A stretch of 64,000 nucleotides of DNA from Roseinatronobacter thiooxidans. Its GTDB lineage: Bacteria > Pseudomonadota > Alphaproteobacteria > Rhodobacterales > Rhodobacteraceae. Position 1 is the first letter of the stretch. Every line of letters starts with the position of its first letter. The notes under the pieces were generated by a model that searched no databases, was not told the DNA's origin, and saw only the letters and a list, made by a program, of their open reading frames with translations. Location: positions 62,001 to 126,000 of the forward strand of contig NZ_MEHT01000044.1 of the NCBI RefSeq assembly GCF_001870675.1, in the 5' to 3' direction. Both the position numbers and the translations under genes were made by a program. Below, in pieces: positions 28,395-42,991 of the stretch.

Positions 28395-28601
28395 ATGCAG
28401 GTATCCGTTCGTGACAACAATGTCGATCAGGCTCTTCGTGCGCTGAAGAAGAAACTCCAGCGTGAAGGTGTATTTCGTGAAATGAAGCTCAAGCAGCATT
28501 TCGAGAAGCCCTCCGAGAAGAAAGCCCGTGAGAAAGCCGAAGCGATCCGCCGTGCACGCAAACTCGCGCGCAAGAAAGCGCAGCGCGAAAACGGCCTCTG
28601 A
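28395..28601 (+). CDS. rpsU: 30S ribosomal protein bS21
   Basis: The 68-residue basic protein is full-length bS21 ([20 protein letters not shown] at the start and a Lys/Arg-rich helix at the end). It sits near the anti-Shine-Dalgarno region of 16S rRNA and helps initiation. The start at 28395 is fixed by the family; upstream in-frame codons are not conserved. Two hairpins follow the stop, the second a strong terminator. Confidence 0.98.
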
Positions 28602-28617
28602 TCTGGCATAGGCCCTG

Positions 28618-28638
28618 AGGTGGGGTTCTGCCCCACCT
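28618..28638 (+). other. Hairpin after rpsU
   Basis: AGGTGGGG (28618-28625) pairs with CCCCACCT (28631-28638) around TTCTG. It has no T run, and lies between the rpsU stop and the terminator, so it may protect the mRNA 3' end. Confidence 0.6.
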
Positions 28639-28649
28639 GAGAAAGAGCG

Positions 28650-28682
28650 ACCCCCGAAGGCCTGGCCTGCGGGGGTTTTTCT
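28650..28682 (+). terminator. Rho-independent terminator of rpsU
   Basis: ACCCCCG...GGGGGT forms a stem with an inner GGCC pairing, followed by TTTTTCTTT. It is about 50 bases past the rpsU stop. Confidence 0.88.
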
Positions 28683-28730
28683 TTGGTCTGTTCGCGCGCC
28701 CTGACGGGCTAAGCGCTGCCTGCCAAGCCC

Positions 28731-29423: not shown

Positions 29424-29766
29424 GGGCCAGAGGTGCCTTGCGCGCCGCGTGTGGTCAAGGGTTTTGTTAACTTTTCGTTAAGGTTAATTAACGCGGTCTC
29501 GGGGACGAATGCCGGGCCAGCACTGCCCCCGAGGGTCACGCCGCAACATGGCCCGCAATCGCCCCCAAAAGAAGTGTTTGGCCCCCTGCCATTCCACCCG
29601 AATCGCTTGCTGCTTCTAGTGCCTTGGGGCAGCGATTAAATTATCGGCGCGCTGTGCAGATGTGGGGACCAAATGTAGACATCGGAAATCTGCCTGTGTA
29701 GCGTGTTCCAGACAAGCTTGGGCGTCGACCGTCGGACAAGCGTTCGGCGGCAAGGGACACCACAGA
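29424..29766. other. Gene-free divergent intergenic region
   Basis: These 343 bases separate the nuclease gene (minus) from the FAD oxidoreductase gene (plus). No coding signal is seen. The nuclease-proximal part is AT-rich and holds the CtrA box and a TTAATTAA palindrome (29484-29491). The remainder is the long leader of the oxidoreductase gene, with no recognised riboswitch. Confidence 0.6.
29467..29481. promoter_or_regulatory. Perfect CtrA-type binding site
   Basis: TTAA-N7-TTAA (TTAACTTTTCGTTAA) matches the full CtrA consensus. It is followed two bases later by TTAATTAA. It lies 44 bases upstream of the nuclease start and 285 upstream of the FAD oxidoreductase start, so the nuclease is the likelier target. 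Confidence 0.6.
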
Positions 29767-36083: not shown

Positions 36084-36098
36084 GCCACCAAACCCAGA

Positions 36099-36156
36099 GG
36101 CCCCGGATCAAGTCCGGGGCCATGTTGCGCGACCGCCTCGGACTTGATCCGGGGCC
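36099..36156. repeat. Large inverted repeat between choX and choW
   Basis: GGCCCCGGATCAAGTCCG (36099-36116) and its exact reverse complement (36139-36156) can pair as an 18-base stem; the left arm is also self-complementary (GGCCCCGGA/TCCGGGGCC). It lies between the binding protein and permease genes. Such a stem may protect the choX message or cause partial termination. Confidence 0.85.
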
Positions 36157-36179
36157 CCTTGGTCAGGACTAGCAAGACG

Positions 36180-37031
36180 ATGTCAGATTTCCTGACCAAA
36201 CCCATTCTGGATGCAAAAATTCCTGTTGGCCGCACTGTCGCCAGTGCCTTCGACTGGCTGCAAGACACGTTCATCACGGCCTTTGACGGGTTGGAAGCGG
36301 GGCTTCGCACCATTATCGGCCTGCTGGCCTCTGCCTTGCAGACTCCGCACCCGTTTGCTGTCATCGCGGCGTTTTGTGCGATCACATGGGTCTTGCAGCG
36401 CAGATGGGTGCCTGTGCTGATCGTCGCGTTTTGTGCCTTATTCGCGCTGAACCAAGGCTATTGGATGCTGACCATGCAAACCCTGACTCTGGTCATCGCG
36501 TCCTGTGTGGTCTGCATGGGCGTGGGCGTGCCGCTTGGCATCTATGCCGCGCATCACCCCCGCTTTTACCGCGCCCTCACCCCGGTGCTGGATCTGATGC
36601 AGACCTTGCCGGTATTCGTCTATCTGATTCCAGTGCTGGTTCTGTTCGGCCTTGGCATGGTACCGGGGCTGGTGGCGACCGTCATCTTTGCCATGCCCGC
36701 CGCGATCCGGCTGACGGAACTGGGCATCCGCTCCACCCCTACGGCCTTATCTGAAGCGGCGACCGCATTCGGCGCAACCACTGCCCAGCGCATCTGGAAA
36801 GTGGAATTGCCCTTTGCCTTTCCCCAGATCATGGCAGGATTGAACCAGACCATCATGCTCTCGCTCTCGATGGTTGTGATCGCGGGTTTGGTCGGCGCGC
36901 CCGGGCTTGGTGTGTCCATCGTGCGCGCGCTCAACACTGTCAATGCCAGCCTTGGGTTCGAGGCAGGCGCGGTTATTGTAGCTGTCGCCATCATGCTCGA
37001 CCGGATGCTGCGCGTAGAGGTGAAGCGATGA
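36180..37031 (+). CDS. choW: Choline ABC transporter permease
   Basis: The 283-residue membrane protein belongs to the ProW/OpuAB permease family, with about six helices. The typical segment LDLMQTLPVFVYLIPVLVLFGLG and the coupling motif EAATAFGATTAQRIWKVELP are present. ATG 36180 has only a weak binding site. The stop overlaps the choV ATG (ATGA). It imports choline with ChoX and ChoV. Confidence 0.94.
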   Translation: MSDFLTKPILDAKIPVGRTVASAFDWLQDTFITAFDGLEAGLRTIIGLLASALQTPHPFAVIAAFCAITWVLQRRWVPVLIVAFCALFALNQGYWMLTMQTLTLVIASCVVCMGVGVPLGIYAAHHPRFYRALTPVLDLMQTLPVFVYLIPVLVLFGLGMVPGLVATVIFAMPAAIRLTELGIRSTPTALSEAATAFGATTAQRIWKVELPFAFPQIMAGLNQTIMLSLSMVVIAGLVGAPGLGVSIVRALNTVNASLGFEAGAVIVAVAIMLDRMLRVEVKR

Positions 37032-39442: not shown

Positions 39443-39528
39443 GGGTCGCCGCACAGGCGCAAGGCGCATGGCCCCTCTTCGGGCCATGCGCCGATAGGGT
39501 GGGTGGGTGGGCGCCTGTGCGGCGACCC
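39443..39528 (+). repeat. Nested inverted repeats after the thioesterase gene
   Basis: The outer arms GGGTCGCCGCACAGGCGC (39443-39460) and its exact complement (39511-39528) pair perfectly over 18 bases. An inner perfect 12-base pair (39463-39474 with 39481-39492) has a CTCTTC loop. A G-quadruplex motif lies between the inner and outer right arms. There is no T run, so it is not a standard terminator. Confidence 0.9.
39497..39511 (+). other. G-quadruplex motif GGGT repeat
   Basis: GGGTGGGTGGGTGGG (four G3 tracts with single T loops) is among the most stable known G-quadruplex forming sequences. It is on the coding strand, 78 bases before the methyltransferase start. The last G overlaps the outer hairpin arm, so hairpin and quadruplex may compete. 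Confidence 0.75.
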
Positions 39529-39588
39529 GGCTTCCCCACAGCACACCGGCCTGATAAGACCGCGCCAAATCCGACCCAAGAGGCCCCC

Positions 39589-40746
39589 ATGACCCCTGCC
39601 GCCCGCCTTCAGGCCGCTGCCGAAATCCTTGACCAAACCCTCAATGGCATGCCCGCCGAACAGGCCCTGACACGCTGGGCGCGCAACAGCCGCTATGCAG
39701 GCTCCAAGGACAGGGCGGCCGTGCGCGACATTGTCTTCGACGCGCTGCGGTGCAAACGCTCTTTCGCGCATCTGGGCGGGGCGGAAACCGGACGCGGGCT
39801 GATTCTGGGGGCCTTGCGCGCGCAAGGCCAAGACCCTGCGGCGCAGTTCACTGGCACAGGCCATGCGCCCGCTCCCCTCACCCCCGCAGAGGCCGCCTAT
39901 ACCCCCCCGCCCATGCCACAGACTGTCGCGCTCGACTGCCCCGAATGGCTGGCCCCACAGCTTGACGCCAGCCTTGCTGCGCAATTCGCGCCTGCCCTTC
40001 AGGCCCTGCGCCAGCGTGCACCTGTGTTTTTGCGCGTCAACACTGCCCGCATTTCTCGGGATCAGGCCATCGCCCTGCTGGCACAGGACGGCATTGAGGC
40101 CACCCTGCACCCCCTCGCCCCGACCGCGCTGGAGGTCAAAACCAACCCGCGCGCAATCCAGCAATCCAAAGCCTATCTTGACGGGTTGGTAGAATTGCAA
40201 GATGCCGCCTCGCAGGCTGTGATCGCGGCGCTGCCGCCCGTACAGGGCAAAACCGTGCTTGATTACTGTGCAGGTGGCGGCGGCAAAGCCTTGGCGCTGG
40301 CAGCACTTGGCGCGCTTGTGACAGCACATGACGCAAACCCCGCCCGCATGCAGGATATACCGCCACGGGCGAAACGCGCGCAGGCCAGCATCACGCTGTC
40401 AAACCGGCCAGAGGGCCAGTTCGATCTTGTCCTGACCGATGTGCCCTGCTCCGGCTCTGGCAGCTGGCGGCGCAGCCCCGCTGGGAAATGGGCGCTTACT
40501 CCAGAAGGGCTGGAAAAGCTGCACCTTATACAGGCGCATATCCTCGACAAGGCGAAAACCCATATGCGCCATGACGGGTATCTCGCCTATGTCACCTGCT
40601 CCATGCTGGCCTCTGAGAACCACGACCAGATCACCGCATTTCTGGGCCGGAACCCTGATCTGGAGCTGGTGAAGGACCGCCAGTTCACACCGCAGGACGG
40701 CGGCGACGGCTTTTATCTCGCGCTGATCAATACGCGAAAAACGTGA
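39589..40746 (+). CDS. RsmB/NOP-type RNA m5C methyltransferase
   Basis: The 385-residue protein has an N-terminal NusB-like/RNA-binding region and a SAM-dependent domain. The catalytic Cys residues are in DVPCSGSGSWRR and YVTCSML; the SAM site is LDYCAGGGGKALALA. It methylates cytosine C5 in rRNA or tRNA. It is shorter than E. coli RsmB (429), and the exact target cannot be assigned. ATG at 39589 has AGAGG five bases upstream. Confidence 0.92.
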   Translation: MTPAARLQAAAEILDQTLNGMPAEQALTRWARNSRYAGSKDRAAVRDIVFDALRCKRSFAHLGGAETGRGLILGALRAQGQDPAAQFTGTGHAPAPLTPAEAAYTPPPMPQTVALDCPEWLAPQLDASLAAQFAPALQALRQRAPVFLRVNTARISRDQAIALLAQDGIEATLHPLAPTALEVKTNPRAIQQSKAYLDGLVELQDAASQAVIAALPPVQGKTVLDYCAGGGGKALALAALGALVTAHDANPARMQDIPPRAKRAQASITLSNRPEGQFDLVLTDVPCSGSGSWRRSPAGKWALTPEGLEKLHLIQAHILDKAKTHMRHDGYLAYVTCSMLASENHDQITAFLGRNPDLELVKDRQFTPQDGGDGFYLALINTRKT

Positions 40747-40781
40747 AATAACTATACTTTTGGTTGCATAGCGCGTGCGAT

Positions 40782-40854
40782 GACCCCAAAATCGCATTAA
40801 CCAGAAGTTAAGAATTTCTCGGTATATTTTATGTGAAAGTTATTTTTTGGGGTC
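40782..40854. repeat. Inverted repeat flanking the cckA promoter
   Basis: GACCCCAAAA (40782-40791) and TTTTGGGGTC (40845-40854) are exact complements 53 bases apart, enclosing an AT-rich stretch that holds the CtrA box. The right arm abuts the start of the kinase gene. It could form a cruciform or bind a regulator dimer. Confidence 0.6.
40797..40811. promoter_or_regulatory. Perfect CtrA-type binding site upstream of cckA
   Basis: TTAA-CCAGAAG-TTAA is an exact match to the full CtrA consensus TTAA-N7-TTAA. It is 48 bases upstream of the assumed cckA start. CckA is the kinase that feeds the phosphorelay to CtrA, so feedback control is plausible. Confidence 0.65.
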
Positions 40855-40858
40855 GCAT

Positions 40859-42991
40859 TTGCGCGTGTCACGTTTTGTATCTTTGGGCCGCGATTTACCG
40901 CTGATGGCAGAGGCGGTGCCAAATTCCGCCTTGGCCGCTTTGGCGAGCAGCGGGGTCGTACTGGGCCTTTTGGGGCTGCTATCGGCCTCGGCTGTGACAT
41001 CACTGGCTTATGTAAGCGCGGGCACCGCGCTACTGCTACTGGGCGGTGTTGCATGGGGTGCAAAGCACCTGATGGGCGCAATCAGAACCCGCGACAAGCG
41101 GCGCCTTATGCAGCTTTTGGGCGGGTCCGGGGCGGCATATATCCTTGCCGATGAAGATGGGCACATACTGTGGCAAAACAGTGCCGCAGCCACCCATTTC
41201 GGCAGTGACATACCCTGCGATCTCAGCGCCATCCTGTCGGATATGCACGCCAACCCCGACGGCTTTGTCACGCGTATGCATGATCTTGCCTGCGCGACCG
41301 ACAGCGCAGACCATCACCTTGCATTGCACAACACGCATAGGGCCTATCATGTTGCCAAGCTTGGCGACGCGCAATTCCTCTGGCGGATCGATCTTGAAAA
41401 CCTGTCTGCACCCAGCGCGCCGTTGCCCGATGAAAACCCAGCCCCCCCTGCGCCGCATATACAAAACACCGCGGCGCAACCGGATGACACACAGCATCTG
41501 CAAACACTGCCCGTCGGGCTGGCGCATATCAACATCGAGGGGCAGTTAACCTATGTTAACGACGAAGCCCGCCGCCTTTTGGGTATGCGCGACACCTGTC
41601 TTCCGCGTCTGAGCGACCTTCTCGAAGGGCTTGGGCGGCCTGTGGCGGAATGGATCGCCGACATCGCTGCGGGGCGCATCGCCCGTTCAACCGAAGTCCT
41701 GCGTTTGAAGCAGAATTTTTCAGAAACCTATCTGAAAGTCACCCTCACGGCCCCCCCGTTTGCAGAGGCAGGATTCATTGTTGTCGTGTTCAGTGATGTG
41801 ACCGAGTTGAAATCGCTCGAGGCGAAATTCTCTCAAAGCCAGAAAATGCAGGCCATCGGGCAGCTGGCGGGGGGGGTGGCGCATGATTTCAACAACCTTC
41901 TGACGGCTATTTCCGGGCATTGCGACCTGTTACTGCTGCGCCATGACCGCAGCGATCTGGATTTCCCTGATCTGATGCAGATACAACAAAATACCAACCG
42001 CGCCGCAGCCCTGGTGCGCCAGCTGCTGGCCTTGTCGCGCCAGCAAACCCTGAAATTCGAAACGCTCGATCTGCATGAAACGATAGAAGATGTGACGCAT
42101 CTGCTGAATCGTCTGGTGGGCGAAAAAGTGACACTGACTTTACGCCATGGCACCGATGTCGCCCCCATCAGATCCGACAAGCGCCAGTTCGAGCAGATCT
42201 TGATGAACCTTGTGGTAAATGCCCGCGACGCGCTGCCAATGGGCGGCGAAATTCGGATCGAGACGGAAACCCGCCCCCTGCCACAGGGACTAACGCGCGA
42301 GAATGTCCAGCTGCCGCCGGGAACCTATACATTGATCACGATCAGCGACGATGGTGTGGGAATCCCGCAAGCGCTAATCGGCAAGGTGTTCGAGCCGTTT
42401 TTCACCACAAAACGTCAGGGAGAGGGGACAGGACTTGGCCTGTCCACTGTCTACGGGATCGTCAAACAATCCGGCGGATATATTTTTGTTGATAGCGAGG
42501 AGGGTGTAGGCGCAAGCTTTACCCTCTATTTCGCCGCCCAAAAACCGGCACCCCCCGTGCCCGAAACGCCCACTCGGGACAGCTTGCACAACACGGCCCT
42601 GCACTTGCGGCATGCGCTCATTCTGCTGGTCGAGGATGAAACGCCTGTGCGCTCTTTCGCGGCCCGCGCGCTAGAACTGCAAGGCCACAAGGTGCTTGAG
42701 GCAGATTGCGGCGAAGCCGCATTGGATATTTTGACAGACCACACCATCCGCCCGGATTGTTTTGTCACAGATGTCATCATGCCCGGCCTTGATGGTCCCA
42801 GCTGGATCGCGGAAATCCGCGACAGATTTCCGGAAACACCTGTGATTTTCATGTCCGGCTATGCCGAAGACAGCCGTGTTGCCGCGCAGGCGCGAATCAG
42901 CAACGCAACATTCCTTGGCAAACCCTTTTCACTGGCCGAATTCACCCAAACCGTGAATGCGCAACTGCGCGAGCCAGTCAAGGCGGCCTGA
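40859..42991 (+). CDS. cckA: Hybrid sensor histidine kinase CckA
   Basis: The protein of about 710 residues has two N-terminal membrane helices, a PAS-like region near residues 205-315, a dimerisation and phosphoacceptor helix with His in AGGVAHDFNNLL, an ATPase domain (NLVVNARDAL, DDGVGIP, GTGLGLSTVYGI) and a C-terminal receiver with Asp in VTDVIMPG. This layout is that of CckA, which drives the ChpT-CtrA phosphorelay, controlling cell cycle, motility or gene-transfer functions in alphaproteobacteria. The start is unclear: TTG at 40859 is likely, with a GGGG six bases upstream, but GTG 40865 or ATG 40904 are possible. Confidence 0.9.
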   Translation: MRVSRFVSLGRDLPLMAEAVPNSALAALASSGVVLGLLGLLSASAVTSLAYVSAGTALLLLGGVAWGAKHLMGAIRTRDKRRLMQLLGGSGAAYILADEDGHILWQNSAAATHFGSDIPCDLSAILSDMHANPDGFVTRMHDLACATDSADHHLALHNTHRAYHVAKLGDAQFLWRIDLENLSAPSAPLPDENPAPPAPHIQNTAAQPDDTQHLQTLPVGLAHINIEGQLTYVNDEARRLLGMRDTCLPRLSDLLEGLGRPVAEWIADIAAGRIARSTEVLRLKQNFSETYLKVTLTAPPFAEAGFIVVVFSDVTELKSLEAKFSQSQKMQAIGQLAGGVAHDFNNLLTAISGHCDLLLLRHDRSDLDFPDLMQIQQNTNRAAALVRQLLALSRQQTLKFETLDLHETIEDVTHLLNRLVGEKVTLTLRHGTDVAPIRSDKRQFEQILMNLVVNARDALPMGGEIRIETETRPLPQGLTRENVQLPPGTYTLITISDDGVGIPQALIGKVFEPFFTTKRQGEGTGLGLSTVYGIVKQSGGYIFVDSEEGVGASFTLYFAAQKPAPPVPETPTRDSLHNTALHLRHALILLVEDETPVRSFAARALELQGHKVLEADCGEAALDILTDHTIRPDCFVTDVIMPGLDGPSWIAEIRDRFPETPVIFMSGYAEDSRVAAQARISNATFLGKPFSLAEFTQTVNAQLREPVKAA

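Follow-up and report, generated by a model that had tools for sequence, protein, structure and literature searches.

CckA is the entry kinase of the CtrA phosphorelay, and control of cckA and divL by CtrA was predicted for the 'cluster B' Rhodobacterales, which lack DivK, by Brilli et al. 2010 (PMC2877005), who also noted the resulting feedback. For D. shibae a CtrA-cckA loop was predicted by Koppenhoefer et al. (PMC6473078), and in a ctrA mutant of that species cckA is lower in stationary phase only, with no effect in exponential phase (PMC6473078, PMC4046655). Ruegeria sp. KLH11 carries a full site 62 bp ahead of the predicted cckA start codon, and extra CtrA left a cckA-lacZ reporter unchanged (Zan et al., PMC3692519). 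For R. capsulatus the results are available as cited in later papers: loss of ctrA leaves cckA transcription unaffected and CckA protein falls (cited in PMC3692519), and LexA acts as a repressor of the cckA promoter (cited in PMC6473078). Caulobacter CtrA sites that activate are placed close to the -35 element, and half sites that repress overlap the -10 element (review PMC6180460). Here, the CtrA-to-cckA feedback is compared base by base across Rhodobacteraceae, starting from a 64,000-nucleotide stretch of the Roseinatronobacter thiooxidans genome (hereafter the window), a comparison that bears on the disagreement among the published reporter tests.

Results

The cckA open frame of the window runs from 40847 to 42991 on the + strand, with in-frame start candidates TTG 40847, TTG 40859 and GTG 40865; we prefer TTG 40859, which together with its Shine-Dalgarno spacing agrees with the relative L083. 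The product has PAS, HisKA, HATPase and receiver domains (Pfam), and its best NCBIfam matches are the CckA models (Brucella and Caulobacter types), all scoring below cut-offs; domain set and best family both bear out an earlier sequence-only reading of this DNA that had named the gene cckA. The upstream neighbour is rsmB, a 16S rRNA methyltransferase gene (39499..40746, + strand; Pfam RsmB/F) with its stop at 40746 and a listed open-frame start that may differ from the true one. This order is widespread: cckA lies downstream of a recognisable RsmB C-terminus in 84 of 92 loci, and a first motif-discovery run returned RsmB coding sequence alone, which confirmed the synteny. A scan of the locus gave no rho-independent terminator, and positions 40000-41500 gave no known RNA element beyond one chance match.

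Between the two genes lies the CtrA box TTAACCAGAAGTTAA (40797..40811, + strand), of the form TTAA-N7-TTAA, with position and sequence exactly as the sequence-only reading had claimed. Its description there as the full consensus is right for TTAA-N7-TTAA but not for the Caulobacter form TTAA-N7-TTAAC, because the base after the second TTAA is G (40812). That C is found in just 57% of the aligned cckA loci and is thus not obligatory in the family. Full TTAA-N7-TTAA sites occur twice in the 64-kb window against 0.03 expected from shuffles. Genome-wide (3.5 Mb) there are 14, fewer than the 26 of the control pattern AATT-N7-AATT, which translates into an expectation of about 4e-4 per 100-bp promoter.

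Of 106 usable Rhodobacteraceae cckA loci, a complete TTAA-N7-TTAA is present at the same place near the open-frame start in 95, and the control AATT-N7-AATT in 0. The sequence-only reading had named absence of the box from close relatives as the finding that would count against it, and that is not what these loci look like. Where the full box is missing it is usually one base short: 9 of 10 boxless loci that were checked retain 7 of the 8 TTAA bases, as do four more members of the genus, at least one of which duplicates a boxless locus already counted. In the closest relative, cckA is split over two contigs and the upstream piece has the box too, TTAACTTGAACTTAA. The 80 GTDB loci in the comparison were taken as the best matches to this CckA rather than drawn at random from the order, and a few of them duplicate genus genomes. 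The spacer bases vary freely, with 86 different 7-base spacers in 92 distinct loci, so the box is kept by selection rather than by simple relatedness. The alignments thus identify the box at cckA as a genuine family-wide conserved site, not a chance match.

Eleven bp past the box is a -10-like hexamer, TATATT (40823..40828, + strand), at offset +26 from the box start. When the loci are aligned on the box, similarity to TATAAT across the offsets tested peaks at +26 (mean 2.53 of 6, compared with about 1-1.8 elsewhere), and the aligned columns there read C--AAT. A -10 element at this fixed offset means that the box covers the -35 region, which is the layout of a CtrA-activated promoter; we infer a transcription start near 40835. 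In the proposed mechanism CtrA~P would bind TTAACCAGAAGTTAA over the -35 region and help RNA polymerase use the -10 at 40823-40828 to initiate near 40835, and the extra CckA would lead, via ChpT, to more phosphorylated CtrA, giving positive feedback. CtrA (scoring above its cut-off), ChpT and CckA are all encoded in this genome, as such a promoter calls for. That CtrA feeds back on its own kinase, as suggested by the sequence-only reading and predicted earlier in the literature, is well supported by the conservation and by the box-to-(-10) geometry. We give a CtrA-activated cckA promoter, with positive feedback on the entry kinase of the relay, a probability of about 0.78. We infer CtrA binding here, and activation rather than repression. 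The lower cckA level of the D. shibae ctrA mutant in stationary phase and the other full boxes of this genome described below count in favour of this reading. Counted against it are the null results in KLH11 and R. capsulatus, the null result in exponential-phase D. shibae and the absent terminal C.

Conservation of the box by itself cannot separate activation from repression, and CtrA might instead bind here mainly to repress or time an upstream cckA promoter, as at P1/P2 of Caulobacter ctrA. We consider this unlikely: a -10 kept at +26 agrees with activation, and cckA falls, not rises, when D. shibae loses CtrA. Another way to accommodate the unchanged reporter in Ruegeria KLH11 and the unchanged transcription in R. 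capsulatus is that the box is bound with little effect on cckA in most conditions and is kept for a rare condition or a basal level of expression. The family-wide retention of the eight TTAA bases around free spacers points instead to a selected role, and the effect in D. shibae depends on growth phase, so that we regard a nearly silent box as quite improbable.

An inverted repeat with perfect 10-nt arms, GACCCCAAAA at 40782-40791 and TTTTGGGGTC at 40845-40854, flanks the box and is present as the sequence-only reading gave it. That reading also raised a second regulator binding the outer arms, and a perfect 10-bp dyad around the box is the observation in favour of such an operator. The arms are, however, separated by a 53-bp gap, and a perfect 10-bp repeat is not rare in itself, since it arises by chance in about 1.3% of shuffled 118-bp regions and the window has 53 such pairs. 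The left-arm GACCCC is found at this place upstream of the box in 0 of 91 other loci, and none of those 91 has both arms. The right arm is explained by the Shine-Dalgarno region of cckA: it contains a Shine-Dalgarno-like GGGG (40849..40852, + strand), and relatives have TTGGGGTCGC or TTGAGG at this place, 6-12 nt ahead of the start. Nor is the repeat found elsewhere in the genome. With no relative keeping both arms, the right arm accounted for by translation and the repeat not rare, the arms are refuted as a conserved operator, and a second regulator using them is very improbable. The sequence-only reading had proposed comparing box and arms across Rhodobacteraceae; the box is kept and the arms are not. 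The 10-bp arms play no role in the CtrA promoter mechanism.

In RNA, with G-U pairs allowed, the repeat is predicted to extend into a larger hairpin, with a left arm at 40771..40791 and a right arm at 40845..40868 that covers the Shine-Dalgarno sequence and the start codons (both + strand). The predicted hairpin (40771-40868) spans 98 nt with 21 pairs, five of them G-U, and one bulge, and the region, which was picked for folding since the repeat had been noticed beforehand, is predicted to fold at -42.4 kcal/mol (z -5.2). Of the 92 homologous regions this one has the lowest z (the next is at -3.5 and the median at -0.8), and it ranks in the top 1% of windows across the 64 kb, a group in which several other windows are at gene ends. 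The hairpin was not found in relatives, the closest of which have ordinary folds (z -0.4 to -0.5), and a search of the relatives for a conserved or covarying stem gave none. A mobile or repeated hairpin was rejected, as the genome holds a single copy. Elsewhere in the window, RNA folding is predicted to be strongest at 36085-36208 (z -9.6) and 28583-28706 (z -7.5); the former comes after the end of a gene and probably serves as a terminator.

In T4 gene e, a hairpin hides the start site in longer transcripts only. A gate at cckA would work alike and is proposed here from predicted folding only. The CtrA promoter lies inside the predicted hairpin loop, and its transcripts would start in the loop and so would not include the left arm. 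In transcripts from upstream the Shine-Dalgarno sequence is predicted to be unpaired with probability 0.00 and the start codons with 0.02; for a transcript that begins at 40835 these values are 0.26 and 0.34, so that even the short form would be only partly open. It is therefore conceivable, in this species, that rsmB read-through transcripts keep the cckA ribosome site shut and that CtrA-started ones are translated. We treat this gate as speculative and doubtful. If it were true, CckA synthesis would be strictly dependent on CtrA~P, and a graded feedback would become a switch.

Although the arms do not serve as a conserved site for the second regulator that the sequence-only reading had in mind, a second conserved site does exist at another place. 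Motif discovery in 83 loci gave ctCAACTtTAGGTTGcgt, located in the stretch from the rsmB stop to the box and present in about 68% of them (log-likelihood ratio 317; shuffles reach at most 58). Its copy in the window, CTATACTTTTGGTTGCAT (40752..40769, + strand), has a degenerate left half and a well-kept right half. A terminator stem does not explain CAAC-N5-GTTG in general, since the Roseobacter versions retain CAAC but lack a right half that could pair with it. In the search for its regulator, a palindromic pattern gave 7 sites and a stricter one had 0 matches in this genome. Published passages on the quorum-sensing LuxR homologs CerM/CerN and on the Xre repressor XrpA contained no matching motif. 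In this genus the motif also offers a concrete form of the upstream promoter considered above, with its right half as the -35 element and a TAnnCT-like -10 just before the box. Several genus relatives have TGnTAnnCT about 16 bp past the motif, just upstream of the box (alignment, judged by eye), but positions 40700-40900 contain no promoter-like + strand match.

On the other side of the box, 39 of the 67 loci from other genera (for example L012, L025, L044 and L061) carry a GANTC site 39-49 bases past the box start (mostly 40-44), near the predicted cckA transcription start, whereas every other 18-base window has GANTC in 0-4 of those 67 loci. Both GATTC and GAATC occur at this site, which indicates that the palindrome is kept rather than one sequence. 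Within the genus of the window the positioned GANTC is found in 0 of 25 loci, although this genome encodes GcrA and a CcrM methylase candidate with a RAMA domain. Over the window as a whole (1-64000) GANTC occurs 64 times where base composition predicts 227, a depletion that fits an active CcrM. Published work gives methylation little role for the CckA-CtrA relay in Rhodobacterales, and the limited literature searched contained no earlier report of a positioned GANTC at cckA. Many family members thus have a CcrM site fixed beside the box, although the relay in this group had been regarded as uncoupled from CcrM and GcrA. We regard the hairpin gate, the CAAC-N5-GTTG motif and the positioned GANTC as leads.

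Full boxes also precede other genes of this genome. One lies 68 bases before the start of a multi-PAS membrane protein gene (L134; G000:C41:121200-123900), a 589-aa open frame with no kinase domain that, by architecture only, is probably the short DivL of Rhodobacterales. This gene and an EAL protein gene have full boxes with box-to-(-10) spacing identical to that of cckA, and a third full box precedes a gene for a MopJ-like PAS_5 protein. The second box in the window, TTAACTTTTCGTTAA at 29467-29481 and followed by GGTTAATTAA, is 44 bases upstream of a reverse-strand open frame whose 230-aa product is probably secreted and nuclease-like (judged by eye).

Discussion

The promoter proposed here resembles the CtrA-activated ones of Caulobacter and of Cereibacter sphaeroides (fla2, osp), in which a -10 element likewise comes after a TTAA-N7-TTAA-type site near -35. 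It differs from them in its target, a kinase gene, and in the last base of TTAA-N7-TTAAC, which is G. The LexA-repressed cckA promoter of R. capsulatus has the gene and the relay in common with this locus; a LexA site of that kind was rejected here, since neither GTTC-N7-GTTC nor GAAC-N7-GAAC is present in the window promoter, and 1 of 92 loci has one (Rhodobacter maris, L025). The cckA promoters of KLH11 and D. shibae share the CtrA site with this locus; in KLH11 site and predicted start codon are 62 bp apart, as they are here from 40797 to TTG 40859. Expression data exist for KLH11 (negative) and for D. shibae (growth-phase dependent).

As a kind, the box at cckA is not new; published predictions anticipated it and its effect is contested. 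The Rhodobacterales prediction of Brilli et al. shares with this locus the box upstream of cckA, and the short DivL-like gene is boxed here too. That work described the relay as isolated from CcrM and GcrA, whereas many relatives here carry GANTC beside the box. Brilli et al. applied a weight matrix to representative genomes, and here about 100 loci are aligned base by base together with the -10 element.
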